Shown: positions 38,623 through 53,152 of the stretch, in pieces | Layout: every line of letters starts with the position of its first letter | Position numbering within the stretch: position 1 is the stretch's first letter | Assembly: GCA_023382455.1 (NCBI GenBank) | Contig: JAHDVX010000001.1 | Span: 1 to 64,000 of the forward strand | Origin: Flavobacteriales bacterium | GTDB taxonomy: Bacteria; Bacteroidota; Bacteroidia; Flavobacteriales_F; PHOS-HE28 | Direction: 5' to 3' | Length of the DNA stretch: 64,000 bases | Translations under genes and position numbers: made by a program | Notes under the pieces: generated by a model | The model's input: the letters and a program-made list of their open reading frames with translations, nothing else | Databases searched by the model: none | What the model was told of the DNA's origin: nothing

Positions 38623-39533
38623 TTGCGTACTGATGTTCTGAGTCGCGCGCTGCGCGCCCTCGGGTTGTTGGCCTGCTCCTCCGCCGATGCCTGCACCGGC
38701 TTGCCGTGCAGCGGGTCGAAAGGCCGTTGGCTGCGGCCGTAGATGTCCTTCTCCTCCTTGCCCTCCAGGCTGCCGGTCTTCATCCAGTTCTTCACCAGGC
38801 GGTCCTCCAAGCTGTGGTAGCTCATCACCACCAGGCGCCCTCCCGGCTTGATCATGGCCGCACTGTCGCGCAGCAGCTGTTCCAGCGCACCCAGCTCGTC
38901 GTTCACGGCGATGCGCAGCGCCTGGAACACCTGGGCCATGAAGCTGTTCTCCTCGCCCCGGCGCGCCATGGGCCGCAGGATGGCGGTGAGCTGGCCAGTG
39001 GTCTCCACGGGCCCTTCCTTGCGGGCCTCCACGATCCGGCGGGCCACCTTGTGGGGCTGTTCCACCTCGCCGTAGTTGCGCAGCAGGGTGGTCAATGCCT
39101 GTTCATCCAGCCCGTTCACCAGGTCTGCTGCGGTGCGTGCCGAGGCCCGCCCCATGCGCATGTCCAGCGCGGCATCGTAGCGGAAGCTGAATCCGCGCTC
39201 AGCGGTGTCGAACTGGTGGCTGCTTACGCCGAGGTCGGCCAGCAGGCCGTCCACGGGGAGCTTGCCCAGGAAGCGCAGGTGGTTGGCGGCCCAGCGGAAA
39301 TCGGAGGGCACCAGGGTGAAGCGGGGGTCGTCGATCCGGTTCCGGCGGGCATCGGCATCGCGGTCAAAGGCCACCAGCGAACCTTGCGGGCCCAGTTCGG
39401 CGAGGATGGCCCGGCTGTGGCCGCCGCCGCCGAAGGTCACATCCACATACGTGCCGGACGGGCGGATGGCGAGGGCTTCAATGCAGGCATGCAGGAGGAC
39501 AGGCTCATGATATGTTCCCTGGAGCCTGCTCAT
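38619..39533 (-). CDS. rsmH: 16S rRNA m4C1402 methyltransferase
   Basis: SAM-dependent N4-methylation of C1402 in 16S rRNA. The 304-residue product has TYHEPVLLHACIEAL at the start, the SAM loop YVDVTFGGGGHSRAIL, LLADLGVSSHQFDTAERGFSF, ALDMRMG, and the C-terminal MSYHSLEDRLVKNWM. The start lies 29 nt inside mraZ; this N-terminus matches the family (YHEPVLL), so the overlap is judged real rather than a frameshift. Confidence 0.97.
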   Translation of the reverse strand: MSRLQGTYHEPVLLHACIEALAIRPSGTYVDVTFGGGGHSRAILAELGPQGSLVAFDRDADARRNRIDDPRFTLVPSDFRWAANHLRFLGKLPVDGLLADLGVSSHQFDTAERGFSFRYDAALDMRMGRASARTAADLVNGLDEQALTTLLRNYGEVEQPHKVARRIVEARKEGPVETTGQLTAILRPMARRGEENSFMAQVFQALRIAVNDELGALEQLLRDSAAMIKPGGRLVVMSYHSLEDRLVKNWMKTGSLEGKEEKDIYGRSQRPFDPLHGKPVQASAEEQANNPRARSARLRTSVRK

Positions 39534-39981
39534 TCCCCAAGCTGCCCATTACCTCCTCGGCCAGCGCGGAGAGATCCACCTTTTCGCGACGCATCTGCAG
39601 GTAGCCGGCCTTGCTCCACACCTCCACCCGGTCGCCCAGCCCCACCAGCTTGAGCTCCTTGCCCAGCTTGGGGTCGTCCATCAAGGCTTTGGGCAGCAGC
39701 AGACGCCCGCTGCCGTCCAGCTCCAGGTGTGTGGCCCCCGAAGTGAAGCGCCGGATGAAATCCATGTTCTTCTCCACGAAGCGGTTCAAGCGCCCCAGCA
39801 TGCGGCTGGTACCCTCCCACACCTCGAAAGGATAGAGCACCAAACAGGGGCGGAACACGTCGCGGTTGATCACGAAGCCCTTCGACAGCTGGTCGGCCAA
39901 CTGCTTCTTCAGCCCGGAAGGCAGCACCAGGCGCCCCTTGGCGTCCAGCCGCACATCGTATTCCCCGAGCAGGTTGAGCAT
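39505..39981 (-). CDS. mraZ: Transcriptional regulator MraZ
   Basis: AbrB-like DNA-binding protein that represses the dcw operon, first gene of the cluster. The 158-residue product has two SpoVT/AbrB-type halves: LLGEYDVRLDAKGRLVLPSGL (4-24), and FTSGATHLELDGSGRLLLPKAL in the middle. Family members bind TGGGN repeats spaced by 5 nt; such repeats lie just upstream at 40027-40051. The ATG at 39981 is 28 bp below a good -7 element. Confidence 0.95.
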   Translation of the reverse strand: MLNLLGEYDVRLDAKGRLVLPSGLKKQLADQLSKGFVINRDVFRPCLVLYPFEVWEGTSRMLGRLNRFVEKNMDFIRRFTSGATHLELDGSGRLLLPKALMDDPKLGKELKLVGLGDRVEVWSKAGYLQMRREKVDLSALAEEVMGSLGNEQAPGNIS

Positions 39982-40008
39982 GCGTAGTCATCGTGGGCGG
40001 GATGGCCG

Positions 40009-40016
40009 CGAAAGTA
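40009..40016 (-). promoter_or_regulatory. -7 promoter element of the dcw operon
   Basis: TACTTTCG on the minus strand, followed by about 27 bp to the mraZ ATG. The MraZ-type boxes begin 10 bp upstream, where bound protein would cover the -33 region. Confidence 0.55.
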
Positions 40017-40026
40017 GGCCCCTATG

Positions 40027-40051
40027 CCCCACTTTCCTCCCTATAACCCCA
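40027..40051 (-). promoter_or_regulatory. Putative MraZ operator
   Basis: On the minus strand there are three pentamers with 5-nt spacers: TGGGG, a degenerate GGGAG, and TGGGG, at an exact 10-bp period. Each outer box sits in an AAAGTGGGG-like or GTGGGG context. MraZ from E. coli and Mycoplasma is known to bind 10-bp-period TGGG repeats upstream of its own gene, so autorepression of the dcw operon is the natural reading. Confidence 0.6.
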
Positions 40052-40136
40052 CTTTGTTCAAAACTATTGCCCTGCAAACGTAATCGAAGTTCTGTGACTG
40101 ACAAAAAACTTCAGTATCCACGGCCTATTTAAGTGG

Positions 40137-40151
40137 TGGGGAAATGTGGGA
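40137..40151 (+). promoter_or_regulatory. Second MraZ-like box pair, arabinose-cassette side
   Basis: On the plus strand TGGGG and TGGGA are separated by 5 nt, the same 10-bp period as the dcw operator, about 115 bp before the UbiA-type gene. Two boxes only, and G-rich words are common in this genome, so this is tentative. Confidence 0.3.
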
Positions 40152-40267
40152 GAATTGTTTCAACACCATCCTGTCACGTCCCTTGGACCCGATCGGTGGT
40201 CCAGGACCCCTGCCACAACCGGGTGGTGGCACGATCAGCGGCGGCCGGCTTTACTTTGCCATTCACC

Positions 40268-41164
40268 ATGGAGCAAGCGGCCGGTCGTCCGTTCACCTTG
40301 AGCACCCTGCCCAGGTTGCTGCGGGTGAACCATTGGATCAAGAATGGCTTCGTGTTCTTCCCGGCGTTCTTCGCCACGGTGATCCTGCAGCCCGAGGTGT
40401 TATGGCGCACCGGCGCAGGCTTCCTCTGCTTCAGCCTGGGAGCCTCGGCTATCTACCTGTACAACGACCTGCGCGATGTGGAGCAGGACCGGCTCCATCC
40501 GGAAAAACGCCTGAGGCCCATTGCCGCCGGCGAAGTGCCCGTGGCGGTGGTGCCGTGGATCAGCGCGCTACTGGCCGTGGCGGCCATGGTGGGCGCCTGG
40601 CTCACGGAACCCCTGTTCGCCTGGGTACTGGGGACCTACCTGATCATGAATCTGCTGTACTCGGCGCGCCTGAAACACATTCCCATCGTGGACGTGGCGA
40701 TCATTGCCCTGGGGTTCAACCTGCGCATCCTCGCGGGGGGCATCCTGGCCCGGGTGCCCAACTCGCAATGGATCTACCTGATCACCTTCCTGCTGGCCTT
40801 GTTCATCGCCTTGGCCAAACGCAGGGACGACCTGGTGCAGGCGGACGGCGGGGCGGGCCTGCGCGCCAGCCTGCGGGGCTACAACCTGCAGTTCGTGGAT
40901 GCCGGCATGATCATGTTGGCCGCGCTCACCGTGCAATCCTACATCCTCTACACGGTGAGTGGCGAGGTGACGGCAAGGCTCCAGACCGACCGGCTATACA
41001 TGACCAGTGGCTTCGTGGTCCTGGGCATGCTCCGGTACTTCCAGATCACCTTGGTGGAAAAGCGCAGCGGCTCCCCCACCAAGCTCGTCTATTCCGACTG
41101 CGGCCTGCGCCTGGTCCTGCTGGGTTGGATCATCTCCTTGGCCGTCATCCTCTATGCGCGCTGA
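40268..41164 (+). CDS. UbiA-family DPPR synthase-like prenyltransferase
   Basis: Probably transfers phosphoribose from PRPP to a polyprenyl phosphate, the first committed step to polyprenyl-phosphoryl-arabinose. The 298-residue product has 8-9 helices, the N-terminal RVNHWIKNGFVFFPAFF, and the metal-binding NDLRDVEQD (66-74) followed by PEKRLRPIAAGEVP, which closely follows mycobacterial Rv3806c/UbiA. The second Asp-containing loop lies near KRRDDL. The frame is open from 40133, but ATG 40268 gives the family N-terminus. The DprE1-DprE2 fusion overlaps its 3' end by 11 nt, which supports this substrate over quinone or haem prenylation. Confidence 0.88.
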   Translation: MEQAAGRPFTLSTLPRLLRVNHWIKNGFVFFPAFFATVILQPEVLWRTGAGFLCFSLGASAIYLYNDLRDVEQDRLHPEKRLRPIAAGEVPVAVVPWISALLAVAAMVGAWLTEPLFAWVLGTYLIMNLLYSARLKHIPIVDVAIIALGFNLRILAGGILARVPNSQWIYLITFLLALFIALAKRRDDLVQADGGAGLRASLRGYNLQFVDAGMIMLAALTVQSYILYTVSGEVTARLQTDRLYMTSGFVVLGMLRYFQITLVEKRSGSPTKLVYSDCGLRLVLLGWIISLAVILYAR

Positions 41165-43247
41165 ACACGGCCGGTGGAGCAATTGGGGCCTGTGGCCATG
41201 GATCACGGGCACCGTTTGGTGGCCCCGGAATGCGCCGGAAGCCGCAGCGCTGGCCCAACGTACGGACCGGCTGACACCACGGGGCAACGGCCGTTCCTAC
41301 GGCGATGCCTCGCTGGGCCGCCGCATGGTGAACGGCTTGGAGCTGGACGAGGTCTTCGAGCTGGATGAGGCAGCGGGAACCTTGCGCTGCAGCGCCGGCA
41401 TGTTGCTGGACGAGATCCTCCTGCGCGTGGTGCCCAAGGGGTTCTTCCTGCCGGTAACCCCCGGTACGCGCCTGGTGAGCATCGGCGGGGCCATCGCCGG
41501 GGACATCCACGGCAAGAACCACCACGTGGACGGCTGCTTCTCGGCCTTCGTGGACGCCATCACGCTGATCGATGGGGCGGGCCGCACCGTGCATTGCTCA
41601 CCCTCCCTCCTGCCTGACCTGTTCCGGGCCACGTGCGGCGGCATGGGCCTCACGGGCTTCATCACCGAGGCCACCATCCGCCTGCGGCGCATCTCCTCCG
41701 CCTACATCCGCCAGCGCAGCATCAAATGCCGCGACTTGGACAGCCTGTTCACGCGTTTCGAGGAGCACGGCCATGCGACATACAGCGTGGCCTGGATCGA
41801 CCTGACCGCAAGGCCCAACCGTTCCGTGCTGCTGCTGGGCCAGCACGCCGAAGCCTCCGAGCTGAAGGGATCCGCAGCCGCCAAGCCACTGCGCACGCAT
41901 GGCCCCACCAGGCTGAAGGTCCCCTTCTTTTTCCCCGGCTTCGTTCTCTCGCCCCTCACGGTGCGCATCTTCAACCTGCTTTACTACCTCAAGGCCGGAG
42001 GTGGAGATCGGGAGACCCTGGTCCACTACGCCCCCTACTTTCATCCGCTGGATGCGGTGCACGAATGGAACAAGATCTATGGGCGGCGGGGGTTCGTGCA
42101 ATACCAGTTCGTGGTCCCCTTGGAAGGCGGCCGTCCGGTGATGGCCTCCATCCTGGACACGCTGCGCCGCGAGGGACTGGTGAGCTTCCTCGCCGTGCTC
42201 AAGCGCTTCGGCCCGGGCCACCCCGATGCCATGATGAGCTTCCCTATGGAGGGCTACACGTTGGCCTTGGACATCCCCTTGCGCAAGCGGACCCTGGCGG
42301 TGCTGGCACGGTTGGATGAACAAGTGGCAGCGGCCGGTGGGCGCATCTATATGGTGAAGGACGCCCGCATGGCACCGGCCATGATGGAACGCACTTACCC
42401 AAGGCTTGGCCGCTTCCGCGAACTGGCGGCCCAATACGGGCATGGCCGGTACACCAGTGCGCTGGCCGAACGGCTGGGCCTGTTGGGAACGGCGCGCCCG
42501 GAAGCCGGCTGGGACCCCGACCGTGTACTGGTGCTGGGCGCGGGCTCCGGCATGGCCATGGAACTGGCGAGGGAATTCGCCCGGGAAGGCCGGTCCTTGG
42601 TGCTGGCCATGCGCGATCGCGGAGCGGCCGAAGCGCTCTGCCGGTCCATCCATGCAGAGACCGGCGCCTCCTGCACCGCCGTGGACTTCGATGCGGAAAA
42701 GCCGGAAAGCCATGCGGCATTCTATGCCTCGCTGGACCCGCGGCCCGGCATCGTGGTATGCGCCTTCGGCCTGTTGCCGGACCAGGCAAGCGCACAGGAA
42801 CAGCCCGGAGGCGGCCTGAAGGCCATCGCGGTGAACTACACCGGTGCCGTCAGCATCCTGGAGGAAGCCGCACGCGACCTGGAACAGCGCGGCGGCGGCG
42901 GCATCATCGGCATCAGCTCGGTGGCGGGCGACCGCGGCCGCGCCAGCAACTACTTCTACGGCAGTGCCAAGGCCGGCTTCACCGTCTACCTCAGTGGACT
43001 GCGCAACCGGCTGCAGGCATCGGGGGTGCATGTGCTCACCGTGAAACCGGGCTTCGTGCGCACGGCCATGACCGAGGGCCTGCCCTTGCCCGCACCACTG
43101 ACGGCCAGCGCCGAACAGGCCGCCAAGGCGATCCACCGGGCGTGGGTGAACCGGCGCAATACGGCATACGTCATGGGGCGTTGGCGCTGGGTGATGCTGG
43201 TGATCAAGCTGTTGCCTGAAGGGATCTTCAAACGCCTGAAGCTGTGA
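41154..43247 (+). CDS. DprE1-DprE2 fusion (polyprenyl-P-ribose 2-epimerase)
   Basis: A 697-residue single chain joining the two enzymes that epimerise polyprenyl-phosphoryl-ribose to arabinose. Residues 1-450 are DprE1-like FAD oxidase: RGNGRSYGDASL (about 43-54), TPGTRLVSIGGAIAGDIHG and KNHH (about 102-124), VKDARMAPAMMERTYPRL, and TSALAERLGLL. Residues of about 455-697 are a DprE2-like short-chain reductase: VLVLGAGSGMAMELAREFA (NAD loop), ISSVAGDRGRASN, the catalytic YGSAK, and VKPGFVRTAMT. In mycobacteria these are separate proteins that work as a pair. ATG 41154 overlaps the UbiA gene; its TGA overlaps the HAD start. Confidence 0.88.
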   Translation: MRAEHGRWSNWGLWPWITGTVWWPRNAPEAAALAQRTDRLTPRGNGRSYGDASLGRRMVNGLELDEVFELDEAAGTLRCSAGMLLDEILLRVVPKGFFLPVTPGTRLVSIGGAIAGDIHGKNHHVDGCFSAFVDAITLIDGAGRTVHCSPSLLPDLFRATCGGMGLTGFITEATIRLRRISSAYIRQRSIKCRDLDSLFTRFEEHGHATYSVAWIDLTARPNRSVLLLGQHAEASELKGSAAAKPLRTHGPTRLKVPFFFPGFVLSPLTVRIFNLLYYLKAGGGDRETLVHYAPYFHPLDAVHEWNKIYGRRGFVQYQFVVPLEGGRPVMASILDTLRREGLVSFLAVLKRFGPGHPDAMMSFPMEGYTLALDIPLRKRTLAVLARLDEQVAAAGGRIYMVKDARMAPAMMERTYPRLGRFRELAAQYGHGRYTSALAERLGLLGTARPEAGWDPDRVLVLGAGSGMAMELAREFAREGRSLVLAMRDRGAAEALCRSIHAETGASCTAVDFDAEKPESHAAFYASLDPRPGIVVCAFGLLPDQASAQEQPGGGLKAIAVNYTGAVSILEEAARDLEQRGGGGIIGISSVAGDRGRASNYFYGSAKAGFTVYLSGLRNRLQASGVHVLTVKPGFVRTAMTEGLPLPAPLTASAEQAAKAIHRAWVNRRNTAYVMGRWRWVMLVIKLLPEGIFKRLKL

Positions 43248-43834
43248 GGACCATCGCCCTCTTCGACCTGGATGGCACCATCACCAGGAAGGACACCATG
43301 TTGGCCTTCCTGCGCATGGAACGTGGCCGTGCAGGACTGGTGGTGCTGCTCGCCCGCATCCTGCCCCAACTGGTCGGTGAACGCCTGGGCCTGCTTCCCG
43401 CCGATACGGCCAAGAAGGCCTTGGTGAAACGCGCCTTCGGTGGCAGGCCGGTGGCCGCGCTGGAGGAATCGGCAGCCCGCTTCCAGGTGGAGATGATGCC
43501 CGGCCTGTTGCGCCCTGCAGCCATGCAGCGCATTGCGCAATACAAGAAGGAAGGCGACCGCGTTGTCATTGTCACGGCTTCCTGCTCGCTGTGGGTGGAA
43601 GCGTGGTGCCGCCAACAGGGCCTGGAGCTGATCGCCACGGAGCTGGAAAAGGCGGGCAGCTGCTTCACCGGCCGCTTGGCCACACCCAACTGCAGGGGGG
43701 CGGAGAAAGTGCGCCGGATCCACGAGGCACTGGGCGACCTCACCGGCCGGGACGTGCATGCCTATGGCGACACGGCCAGCGACAAGCACATGCTCGGGAT
43801 GGCCCGTTTGGGCCATTACCGGCCATTTCGATAG
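43244..43834 (+). CDS. HAD-superfamily phosphatase (HAD-IB type)
   Basis: A 196-residue phosphatase of the SerB/phosphoserine-phosphatase-like HAD subfamily: nucleophile loop FDLDGTITRKD (7-17), motif II VIVTASCS, and motif IV YGDTASDKHML. The GTG start overlaps the fusion gene's TGA (GTGA), indicating tight coupling. In the polyprenyl-arabinose pathway a phosphatase must remove the 5-phosphate from the UbiA product. Mycobacteria use an unrelated PAP2 enzyme, and this HAD protein is the obvious candidate here; that role is inference. Confidence 0.8.
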   Translation: MRTIALFDLDGTITRKDTMLAFLRMERGRAGLVVLLARILPQLVGERLGLLPADTAKKALVKRAFGGRPVAALEESAARFQVEMMPGLLRPAAMQRIAQYKKEGDRVVIVTASCSLWVEAWCRQQGLELIATELEKAGSCFTGRLATPNCRGAEKVRRIHEALGDLTGRDVHAYGDTASDKHMLGMARLGHYRPFR

Positions 43835-43848
43835 ATTGCGGTTTCCAG

Positions 43849-44310
43849 ATGGGCCTGCACCAGGCGCTCCACACTCCCGGCTTCCGTTGGCGTTTCTGCG
43901 CCCTTGCAGCCTTGCTGGGTGTGTTGGGCTACACCGCCGTGAACGCCATCCAGGGGCCGGTTCCCCAGGACGATGTGGCAGGCACCTACCGGCTGGCACC
44001 ACACCGGCTGCTACCGGTGGACAGCCTGCCCGCCGGCCTGCAATTGCATGACGACGGCACCCTGATCCTGCTCTCCGGAACAGGGGACACATTGAAGCGC
44101 TGCCAGTGGCACTGGGAGGAGGCGGAACGGTTGGTGCGTACCAGCGCACCCGACTGGGACCGCCGGATCCGTATACGAAGCTCCTTGGGCGGGCACCGGC
44201 TCGCGGTCCGCATCGCAAGTACACCCCTGATATTGGACGACAACGAGCGATTCGAGGAGGCGGAATACATCCGATCGGCCATTGCGCCGGAAAACGCCAG
44301 GCACCCGTAA
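43849..44310 (+). CDS. Small one-helix envelope protein, family not recognised
   Basis: A 153-residue protein. A short basic N-terminus precedes one hydrophobic helix (FCALAALLGVLGYTAVNAI, about residues 16-34); the rest is soluble, beta-rich and probably periplasmic (DDVAGTYRLAPHRLLPVDSL, LQLHDDGTLILLSGTGD). The DGT and 'G-YRL' pattern is loosely lipocalin-like. It lies between the HAD phosphatase and the GT-C gene, with 14-bp and 3-bp gaps, so it belongs to the cassette. No function can be assigned. Confidence 0.6.
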   Translation: MGLHQALHTPGFRWRFCALAALLGVLGYTAVNAIQGPVPQDDVAGTYRLAPHRLLPVDSLPAGLQLHDDGTLILLSGTGDTLKRCQWHWEEAERLVRTSAPDWDRRIRIRSSLGGHRLAVRIASTPLILDDNERFEEAEYIRSAIAPENARHP

Positions 44311-44313
44311 GCG

Positions 44314-46014
44314 ATGCCGGAAAAACACTCCTTCACCACTGGTCGCCTGCACGACCCTCCGGGCTCCGGATGGGTTGCCATGCTTCTTCTCCTGTTCATG
44401 CTCGTGTTGGCCCTGCTACCGGCCCTACGGTCCGTGCAAGGCCTCACCACCGGTGCGGTGGTGGACCTTCACCGGGATGAAGCCTTCGTGCGCGCCATAA
44501 TGGAGGGCCATTACGGCGTCGACCCCACCTATCGCGAAGGAGGGCTCTGGTACACGCCGCTTAACGCATGGATCGAAACAGTGGCCGTGTGGATCACGGG
44601 GCTACCGGTGGCGGAGGTGATCGTGCAGATGGGTCCCTGGTTCAACCTGTTGGCCCCGGTGAGCTTCTTCATCATGGCCTGGTACTTCCTGGGGCCCTTG
44701 CGTGCTGCCGCATCCACGGCGGCTTTCCTGTTCTTCTCGGTGGGCCAGGAACCGGGCTGGGCCGTGGCCACCTATGCCGCGCGCATGATCCCATCGTCCG
44801 CCAGCCAGTGGCTCTTCTACTTGGAACTCATCCTCATCCACCGGGCGGTGCGCTCCGGGCGTGCAGGGCCGTTTGCCGTTGCCGGCGCCGGGGCGGGCAT
44901 CACCTTTCTGGCCCACGCCGCCCCTGCCTTCATCGCGGTGCTGCTCATTGCTTGGGCGACCATCCGGCGCTTCATCACATCATGGCGGCACGGAGACAAG
45001 CCGGCGATGCTGGGCGCAGCAAGGGCCGGGCTCGTGGCCGGGGCCGCCTTCCTGGTGGCCACCCTGCCACTCACCTGGTACCTGTTCGGCAATGGCACCC
45101 AGGTCCTGAACCGGGCTGGCGCCCAATACACCTATTACTCACTGAGCCTGGACGGTGCCCGGATCTTCCTGTACCACAACCTCTCCTTGTTCAACCTCTT
45201 CGGCTTGGCAGGATTGTGGTTGATCATCCGCGGGCATGCCCTCCGCGAACTGGAAGGCCGGGGCATCCTGCTGGCCTGGCCGGTACTGTCCGTGGCCTTG
45301 GCCGGGTACTGCTACAGTGTGGCCGTGCTGGAATCCCGGTTCGGCATCCATCTGCCCACCTTGGTCCCGTCCTTCCATTTTTACCTGTACACCAAGGGTG
45401 CCCTGGCCTTGTTCGCCGGCATTGCGGCCTGGGAGCTGTTCAGCTGGATCCGGAGCCGGGCCTTGCCCAAATCGGATGCCCCTCCACAGCAAGCGATGTT
45501 CAGCTTTATCGCCTTGATCGCCTTGGCCTGCACAGTGCACTATCCCTCCTATGCCACGCGGCGGGACCTGGCGGTGGTGCGCGCGCGCAACCTGGCCTTC
45601 AAGGAGGACCGGCCGGGCGTGGAGGCTGCTGCGGCGATCAACCGGCTCGTGCCCTGGGAAGGCGTGGTGCTTTGCAGCATCGACCTCAGCCTTTGGCCGG
45701 TGCTGCCGTCGGCCCGCCATGTGGTGGCCACCGCATCCACCATGAGCAATCCGTACCTGGATGCACGCCGGCGGCTGGATGACAATGAGCAGCTCTTGGA
45801 TGCCATGCGTTCGCCCCGCACGGGCACCGCGCAACGCCTGGAGCAATACGGCGTGACCCACCTGCTGGTGCGCGCCGACGGCCTGGCCGGCATGCCCGAG
45901 GCCAAGCGCTGGTTCCCTGTTGAAGTGTTCCGCAATGAGGCTTACGTATTGCTCGCGCGAAGACCCGCACACGGTGAAAGACCTCAGCACCTACATTTGG
46001 GCATCCACGGGTGA
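44314..46014 (+). CDS. GT-C-type membrane glycosyltransferase candidate
   Basis: A 566-residue polytopic protein with about 10-12 helices over residues 20-410 and a soluble C-terminus (about 415-566). The first loop carries the acidic motif DLHRDEAFV (near 50-58), then YREGGLWYTPLNAWIE, the arrangement of polyprenyl-phosphosugar-dependent GT-C enzymes, whose catalytic Asp/Glu sits in the first external loop. As the last gene of a polyprenyl-phosphoryl-arabinose cassette it is a candidate arabinofuranosyltransferase, comparable in layout to AftA-type enzymes. Specificity is inferred from context only. Confidence 0.65.
   Translation: MPEKHSFTTGRLHDPPGSGWVAMLLLLFMLVLALLPALRSVQGLTTGAVVDLHRDEAFVRAIMEGHYGVDPTYREGGLWYTPLNAWIETVAVWITGLPVAEVIVQMGPWFNLLAPVSFFIMAWYFLGPLRAAASTAAFLFFSVGQEPGWAVATYAARMIPSSASQWLFYLELILIHRAVRSGRAGPFAVAGAGAGITFLAHAAPAFIAVLLIAWATIRRFITSWRHGDKPAMLGAARAGLVAGAAFLVATLPLTWYLFGNGTQVLNRAGAQYTYYSLSLDGARIFLYHNLSLFNLFGLAGLWLIIRGHALRELEGRGILLAWPVLSVALAGYCYSVAVLESRFGIHLPTLVPSFHFYLYTKGALALFAGIAAWELFSWIRSRALPKSDAPPQQAMFSFIALIALACTVHYPSYATRRDLAVVRARNLAFKEDRPGVEAAAAINRLVPWEGVVLCSIDLSLWPVLPSARHVVATASTMSNPYLDARRRLDDNEQLLDAMRSPRTGTAQRLEQYGVTHLLVRADGLAGMPEAKRWFPVEVFRNEAYVLLARRPAHGERPQHLHLGIHG
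45992..45999 (+). promoter_or_regulatory. -7 promoter element of the alpha/beta hydrolase
   Basis: TACATTTG, an exact consensus match inside the last codons of the GT-C gene, 18 bp before the hydrolase ATG. It separates the arabinose cassette from the older hydrolase-engB unit. Confidence 0.55.
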
Positions 46015-46016
46015 GC

Positions 46017-46778
46017 ATGGTTCACGAGTTGAAGGAAGCAGGGGAATTCAAGTACATCGATGTTGGCGATGGTCCGCCGCTGCTGTTCCTGCACGGGCTG
46101 TTCGGGGCGCTGAGCAACTTCGGGGACACCACGGACCATTTCGCCCGCCGCTACCGCGTGGTGATGCCCATGCTGCCCCTCTACTCCCTGCCGATGCTGA
46201 ACACCAACGTGAAGGCATTGGCCGCATTCCTCGACCGCTTCATCCGGCACTTGGGCCTGAGCCAAGTGAACCTGCTGGGCAACTCCCTGGGCGGCCATGT
46301 GGCCCTGGTCTATTGCAGCCAGCACGCGCAAACCGTGCGTACCCTTTCGCTCACCGGCAGCAGCGGCCTGTACGAGAATGCCTTCGGGGGCAGCTTCCCG
46401 CGGCGCGAGGACAAGGAGTTCATCCGCAAGAAGGTGGCCGTCACCTTCCACGATCCGAAGTTCGCCACGGATGAACTGGTGGATGAGTGCTTCGAGACGG
46501 TGAACGACCGCGCCAAGCTGATCCGCATCCTTTCCCTGGCCAAGAGCGCCATCCGGCACAACATGGCGGCCGAGCTGCCCAAGCTGAACATGCCGGTGTG
46601 CCTGATCTGGGGCAAACAGGACACCATCACCCCGCCGCACGTGGCCGAGGAATTCCACCAGCTGATCCCCCACAGTGAGCTCTTCTGGATCGACCAATGC
46701 GGCCATGCCGCCATGATGGAGCAACCCGCGGAGTTCAACGCCATCCTGGACGCGTGGCTGACGAAGACCTTGGGGTGA
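46017..46778 (+). CDS. Alpha/beta hydrolase
   Basis: A 253-residue alpha/beta-fold hydrolase: oxyanion loop LLFLHGLFGALSNF, nucleophile elbow GNSLGG (Ser about residue 90), the acidic residue in LIWGKQDTITPP and the catalytic His in DQCGHAAMMEQP. A GTG at 46011 is in frame, but ATG 46017 suits the promoter at 45992. Substrate unknown. I recall this protein as a regular neighbour of engB and mraZ in Bacteroidota; here the arabinose cassette separates it from mraZ. Confidence 0.9.
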   Translation: MVHELKEAGEFKYIDVGDGPPLLFLHGLFGALSNFGDTTDHFARRYRVVMPMLPLYSLPMLNTNVKALAAFLDRFIRHLGLSQVNLLGNSLGGHVALVYCSQHAQTVRTLSLTGSSGLYENAFGGSFPRREDKEFIRKKVAVTFHDPKFATDELVDECFETVNDRAKLIRILSLAKSAIRHNMAAELPKLNMPVCLIWGKQDTITPPHVAEEFHQLIPHSELFWIDQCGHAAMMEQPAEFNAILDAWLTKTLG

Positions 46779-53004: not shown

Positions 53005-53029
53005 CGCCGCGTTCTTTCCCACAACAGCA

Positions 53030-53136
53030 CTTATCCAGAAAGGTGGAGGGTTCAGGCCCTGTGAAACCTTGGCAACCGGTCAGCCCCACGGCTGACAGCG
53101 GTGCCAACTCCTGCCCCGGCAACGGGGAGAGATAAG
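53030..53136 (+). promoter_or_regulatory. SAM-I (S-box) riboswitch
   Basis: P1 pairs CTTATC (53030-53035) with GATAAG (53131-53136). Between them are the S-box landmarks GGTGGAGGG, CCCTGTGAAACCTTGGCAACC, GGTGCCAACTCC and a final short hairpin (CCCCGGCAACGGGG) before GAGAGATAAG. It precedes a methionine-pathway operon. Binding of S-adenosylmethionine should stabilise P1 and favour the terminator hairpin at 53153, switching the operon off when SAM is plentiful. Confidence 0.92.
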
Positions 53137-53152
53137 ACGATCAACGACCTCC

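Follow-up and report, generated by a model that had tools for sequence, protein, structure and literature searches.

Results

A five-gene cassette in the genome of an uncultured Flavobacteriales bacterium probably makes polyprenyl-phosphoryl-D-arabinofuranose and hands this donor to a periplasmic glycosyltransferase. The lipid-linked arabinose would very probably be the one on which cell-wall synthesis in tuberculosis bacteria depends. On sequence evidence the donor pathway is very likely, and a structural model and gene linkage make it likely that the GT-C protein of the cassette transfers the arabinosyl residue. Donor synthesis is well supported because of the identities of the UbiA-type, DprE1-DprE2 and HAD proteins, together with the fold of the GT-C protein.

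Organization and genomic setting of the cassette

The window (the whole stretch of DNA analysed, 64,000 nucleotides) carries the cassette as five ORFs on the + strand (Table 1), with the positions, overlaps and gaps that a first-pass annotation had read from the sequence. A codon-usage gene caller picked all five ORFs, placing two starts further in; the small ORF scored weakly (12, cf. 54–216 for the other four). Conservation among relatives ruled out chance ORFs: 8/8 cassette-bearing members of the genus had kept the donor genes, and six of the eight also the small-protein and GT-C genes.

Table 1. Features of the cassette and its flanks, in window coordinates.
Feature	Position	Strand	Details
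mraZ	39505-39981	-	divergent; head of dcw cluster; flanks cassette upstream
UbiA-type polyprenyl-phosphate phosphoribosyltransferase (DPPR/PPPR synthase)	40268..41164	+	298 aa
DprE1-DprE2 fusion	41154..43247	+	697 aa; 11-bp overlap with UbiA
Fusion joint (approximate), short linker between DprE1 and DprE2 halves	42480..42515	+	from alignment and junction comparison
HAD-IB phosphatase, proposed to remove the 5-phosphate	43244..43834	+	196 aa; GTG start; 4-bp overlap with fusion
Small membrane-anchored protein	43849..44310	+	153 aa; 14-bp gap after HAD
Polytopic GT-C-fold protein, proposed arabinofuranosyltransferase	44314..46014	+	566 aa; 3-bp gap after small ORF
Alpha/beta-hydrolase gene	46011-46778		flanks cassette downstream

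The cassette forms an island between mraZ and the hydrolase gene (window 39981-46011), after which follow genes for a YihA-type GTPase, gldC, gldB and nadE. The mraZ-hydrolase interval lacked the cassette in 14 genus genomes checked, measuring a few hundred bp in 13 of these and holding an 827-aa kelch-like ORF in G020 (L167). The interval thus carries variable cargo (L165-L169), namely the cassette in six genomes, the kelch-like ORF in G020 and nothing in the rest; two further genomes (G012, G013) carry the cassette elsewhere in the genome. Because the composition of the cassette resembles that of its host (GC 65.5%, cf. 63.5% for the window), recent transfer from a distant source is unlikely. 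Elsewhere in the window, a SAM riboswitch (53028-53138, + strand; Rfam RF00162, 77.6 bits) lies upstream of a cystathionine gamma-synthase-like ORF, an instance of ordinary methionine regulation.

The GT-C protein and its small partner

The GT-C protein had no match in Pfam, NCBIfam or PDB sequences, whether searched as a protein or as a profile. An AlphaFold model built from a ten-sequence alignment (pLDDT 77, pTM 0.81) was compared with known structures using Foldseek, and the highest TM-score was to AftA (8if8; TM 0.61/0.58, E 1.5e-8) at a large rmsd of 6.3, while STT3 and ArnT reached TM ~0.5 with E-values similar to that of AftA. Residues D51, R54 and D55, just past the first transmembrane helix, were invariant, so that the modelled GT-C fold is accompanied by acidic residues (D51/D55) in the first extracytoplasmic loop. 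The GT-C assignment of the first-pass annotation was thus upheld as an AftA-like predicted fold. The likeness to AftA is one of predicted fold, with no membership by sequence similarity, and we consider that the protein may work like AftA as a non-member of its family. The small protein was predicted to have one transmembrane helix and a lipocalin-like beta-barrel (model pLDDT 81); its fold matches to lipocalin-like structures were weak, and one relative weakly matched a lipocalin-like Pfam domain. Its gene lies upstream of that for the GT-C protein in six cassettes, in three standalone GT-C loci and in G138.

Few genomes had a member of the GT-C family (7 of the 396 sampled from the class). 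Within the genus its tree splits into two clades, one of six cassette-linked and one of five standalone proteins, and a recognisable small-protein gene adjoins four of the five standalone loci. Copper or heavy-metal efflux genes also adjoin four of these five loci (L170, L171, L172, L190, L191). UbiA and DprE were either both present or both absent in the 13 genomes checked. Two relatives (G022, G138) had a standalone GT-C gene and neither UbiA nor DprE, and another (G017) had the donor genes without a GT-C of the cassette family or the small-protein/GT-C pair. In other Bacteroidota, sequence-unrelated GT-C-like proteins, some of them PMT_2-like, adjoin the same donor genes. Because of these patterns, the donor unit is regarded as stable and the transferase as swappable. 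A single GT-C family for all Bacteroidota cassettes was unsupported (hhalign probability ~0.1% for the Chitinophagaceae-type partner), and the idea that the GT-C protein belongs obligatorily to the arabinose pathway was rejected, given its relatives without donor genes.

We considered whether the donor genes make lipid-linked arabinose for some other transferase while the cassette GT-C moves a different polyprenyl-phosphate sugar. The relatives that have one part without the other favour this alternative, but the cassette-linked GT-C proteins form their own clade (6/6 linked), a GT-C homologue adjoins donor genes in another family as well (G130), and AftA gave the highest TM-score; we regard it as unlikely, though the most serious of the competing readings. 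The description of the cassette as a self-contained five-gene module did not hold, as donor genes and GT-C occur separately in G017, G022 and G138 and no flippase is linked to the cassette. No GtrA-family protein was found in the genome (99.95% complete), and its MATE proteins sit on contigs other than that of the cassette.

The DprE1-DprE2 fusion protein

The 697-aa protein comprises an FAD oxidase half (~aa 9-443) and an SDR reductase half (~aa 454-697). For the first half (residues 30-443), no model scored better than DprE1 (379 bits, E 3e-113), and for the second (residues 454-696) DprE2 led the functionally defined models (196.5 bits, E 6e-58), both below the NCBIfam equivalog cut-offs (500 and 250 bits, respectively). 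The first half was thus filed as DprE1-like rather than as a strict equivalog of the mycobacterial enzyme. PDB chains of DprE1 and DprE2, both of which are contained in entries 21gq, 21gr, 21gt and 43fx, matched successive halves. The first half has the FAD-binding fold PF01565 with Y49, H119, K121, Q316, Q318 and K402 invariant among 97 sequences, and the second has the SDR fold PF00106 with the catalytic Ser and the Tyr and Lys of YxxxK invariant among 94. By these profile and motif matches, the ORF is a genuine fusion of DprE1 and DprE2 in which every catalytic motif is present, in agreement with its original annotation.

The cysteine that benzothiazinones attack in mycobacterial DprE1 is Cys387, and the corresponding position was Ala or Thr in 97/97 DprE1 homologues. 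Because the target residue is replaced, these homologues should be insensitive to benzothiazinones.

The scores below the cut-offs would also be compatible with a fusion whose substrate is a different sugar, lipid-linked or free, in which case the operon would make a different pentofuranose donor, e.g. a C3 epimer; Citrobacter makes other pentofuranoses from the same lipid-ribose entry point (PMC11127046). We consider this quite improbable, since DprE1 and DprE2 were nonetheless the leading models, the catalytic residues are conserved, and the xylofuranose system relies instead on one SDR epimerase to which these enzymes are unrelated (PMC11127046).

The uninterrupted fusion is fixed in the genus (8/8 cassette-bearing members), whereas elsewhere dprE1 and dprE2 are mostly adjacent, often in frame with one intervening stop. 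Three more fusions were found (G033, Flavobacteriales UBA10329 and a Cloacimonadota MAG), in each of which a Met resembling the old DprE2 start persists at the junction, pointing to loss of a stop codon as their probable route. On the tree, the fused state needs four changes. One ancestral event for all fusions was weakly rejected (p-AU 0.039, for a group defined post hoc from the tree), and one origin for the Bacteroidota fusions was not rejected (p 0.41); there were thus probably at least two origins, and up to four.

In M. tuberculosis, DprE1 and DprE2 co-purify as an active complex in which DprE1 turns over faster owing to DprE2, and N-terminally truncated DprE2 no longer binds DprE1 (PMC9993113). 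Among the sequences that we compared, actinobacterial DprE2s start with a conserved tail of ~10 residues (DAxGxPQ type), while the tail is ~0-4 residues long in Bacteroidota and most Pseudomonadota and ~6-7 in Bradyrhizobium. The fusion joint coincides with the site of the actinobacterial tail, and the covalent linker may substitute for the absent docking tail.

The UbiA-type and HAD-IB proteins

The UbiA-type protein matched decaprenyl-phosphate phosphoribosyltransferase (Rv3806c type), as had been proposed. It passed the curated equivalog cut-off of NCBIfam NF008977 (DPPR synthase) marginally (235 bits, cf. 234) and has the Asp-rich NDxxDxxxD motif; the annotated stretches NDLRDVEQD and RLRPIAAG were both found. 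At least 93% of the 81 homologues compared retained N66, D67, D70, D74 and K184-R185. Neither of the computational outcomes named as refuting the first-pass annotation, a UbiA protein of quinone or haem type or a fusion without DprE1 similarity, was obtained. The reading of the UbiA-type protein as a prenyltransferase of quinone or haem synthesis with unrelated neighbours can be dismissed for practical purposes: the protein does match the general UbiA Pfam model, but all three further UbiA-family genes of the genome outscore it there, the haem and quinone models were more than 40 orders of magnitude weaker than that of DPPR synthase, and its sole PDB relatives were DPPR synthase structures (8j8j/8j8k, E 1e-37).

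The HAD protein scored 119.8 bits against TIGR01490 (cut-off 98.3), and D8, D10, S113, K155, D176 and D180 were kept across 52 loci, which supports an intact HAD-IB phosphatase suitably placed for the dephosphorylation step. The earlier proposal that a HAD enzyme replaces the mycobacterial PAP2 phosphatase stands in so far as the phosphatase is intact, but the swap is not particular to this genome, being the norm in Bacteroidota and already described for this step in Citrobacter. In Pseudomonadota, many of the UbiA ORFs are ~180 aa longer, and the one scanned was a full-length HAD-UbiA protein, an architecture that joins phosphatase and transferase in Citrobacter (PMC11127046). Orthology of the cassette HAD with the UbiA-fused HAD domain of Pseudomonadota was unsupported, with weak matches only.

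Distribution of the donor operon

Of 396 genomes sampled from the class, 55 contained DprE homologues. A genome scan gave 80 loci from Bacteroidota, Pseudomonadota, Actinomycetota, Kiritimatiellota, Cloacimonadota and Binatota. In the survey of gene order that the first-pass annotation had suggested, 44 of the 59 DprE1 loci sampled from Bacteroidota had the order UbiA-DprE1-DprE2-HAD, as a rule with dprE1 and dprE2 as two genes, and so did 1 of 33 Pseudomonadota and Actinomycetota loci; the loci were selected by similarity to the fusion of the window, so these counts are not a census. The four-gene operon is common in Bacteroidota, and we found no account of it, or of Bacteroidota DprE or D-Araf, in the open-access papers searched. 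DprE1/DprE2 pairs also occurred in Kiritimatiellota (L063, L126), Cloacimonadota (L068, which includes a separate DprE1-DprE2 fusion) and Binatota (L092), phyla for which we know of no reported arabinan.

Discussion

In the pathway that we propose, the lipid carrier is probably undecaprenyl. Following the phosphoribosyltransferase step, the HAD-IB enzyme would strip the 5-phosphate, the FAD-containing DprE1 half would oxidise the lipid-linked ribose at C2, and the unstable 2-keto intermediate would pass to the tethered DprE2 half for NAD(P)H reduction to the arabinose epimer. The lipid would then be turned over by an unlinked flippase, and the GT-C protein, with its membrane-anchored barrel partner, would transfer arabinofuranose to an envelope acceptor. 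The enzyme identities up to the epimerization draw on conserved catalytic residues and other sequence evidence, and the final transfer on predicted fold and gene linkage; we infer the flipping step, the acceptor and the lipid, as well as all of the activities. Weighing against the pathway are the DprE scores under the equivalog cut-offs, the marginal UbiA score, the missing linked flippase and GtrA protein, and the separate occurrence of GT-C and donor genes.

A more specific version of this pathway is that a natural single-chain epimerase channels the keto intermediate and that a new AftA-like GT-C family with a lipocalin-like partner builds a D-arabinofuranose envelope glycan in some Flavobacteriales. 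We hold this version tentatively, at slightly less than even weight; if true, such a glycan would be one so far undescribed for Bacteroidota. The natural fusion is independent evidence that both epimerase enzymes act as a unit; as a single chain, it also lends itself to structural and kinetic study of a drug target. The genes for the arabinose-donor pathway, a target of anti-tuberculosis drugs, are widespread in Bacteroidota and arranged in a compact operon, from which we predict D-Araf glycans for genera that can be cultured, among them Chryseobacterium and Chitinophaga.

Compared to the mycobacterial DPA pathway (Rv3806c, Rv3807c, DprE1, DprE2, AftA/Emb), the cassette has a homologous phosphoribosyltransferase, oxidase and reductase, and a GT-C enzyme whose predicted fold resembles that of AftA. 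It differs in that DprE1 and DprE2 are fused rather than working as a complex, a HAD phosphatase stands in place of the unrelated Rv3807c, the GT-C protein lacks sequence similarity to known families, there is no Rv3789/GtrA-type flippase, and the benzothiazinone-reactive Cys is Ala. The three-component pentofuranose system of Citrobacter youngae (Kelly et al. 2024, PMC11127046) likewise combines a PPPRS, a HAD phosphatase and a GT-C protein and runs through a polyprenyl-phosphate pentofuranose; the cassette holds all three components together without the linked flippase of that system. In Citrobacter UbiA carries a fused HAD domain and the cluster includes a MATE flippase, whereas here the HAD-IB protein is separate, the two epimerase enzymes form one chain and the cassette has no linked flippase. 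DprE1/E2 homologues have been reported for Araf systems (PMC11127046). In the pilin D-Araf system of the Gram-negative Pseudomonas aeruginosa (Harvey et al. 2011, as cited in PMC11127046), a PPPRS homologue has been proposed as the source of polyprenyl-P-Araf, the phosphatase is of another structural family and pilin is the acceptor. The P. aeruginosa DprE2 lacks the N-terminal residues, yet is a separate protein, unlike the fusion here. The concept as such thus has precedents in mycobacteria, Pseudomonas and Citrobacter. What appears not to have been described so far is the fused arrangement and the form of it that is widespread in Bacteroidota, and the new elements are the fused epimerase, the operon with a standalone HAD-IB phosphatase and the pairing of the GT-C with the small protein.
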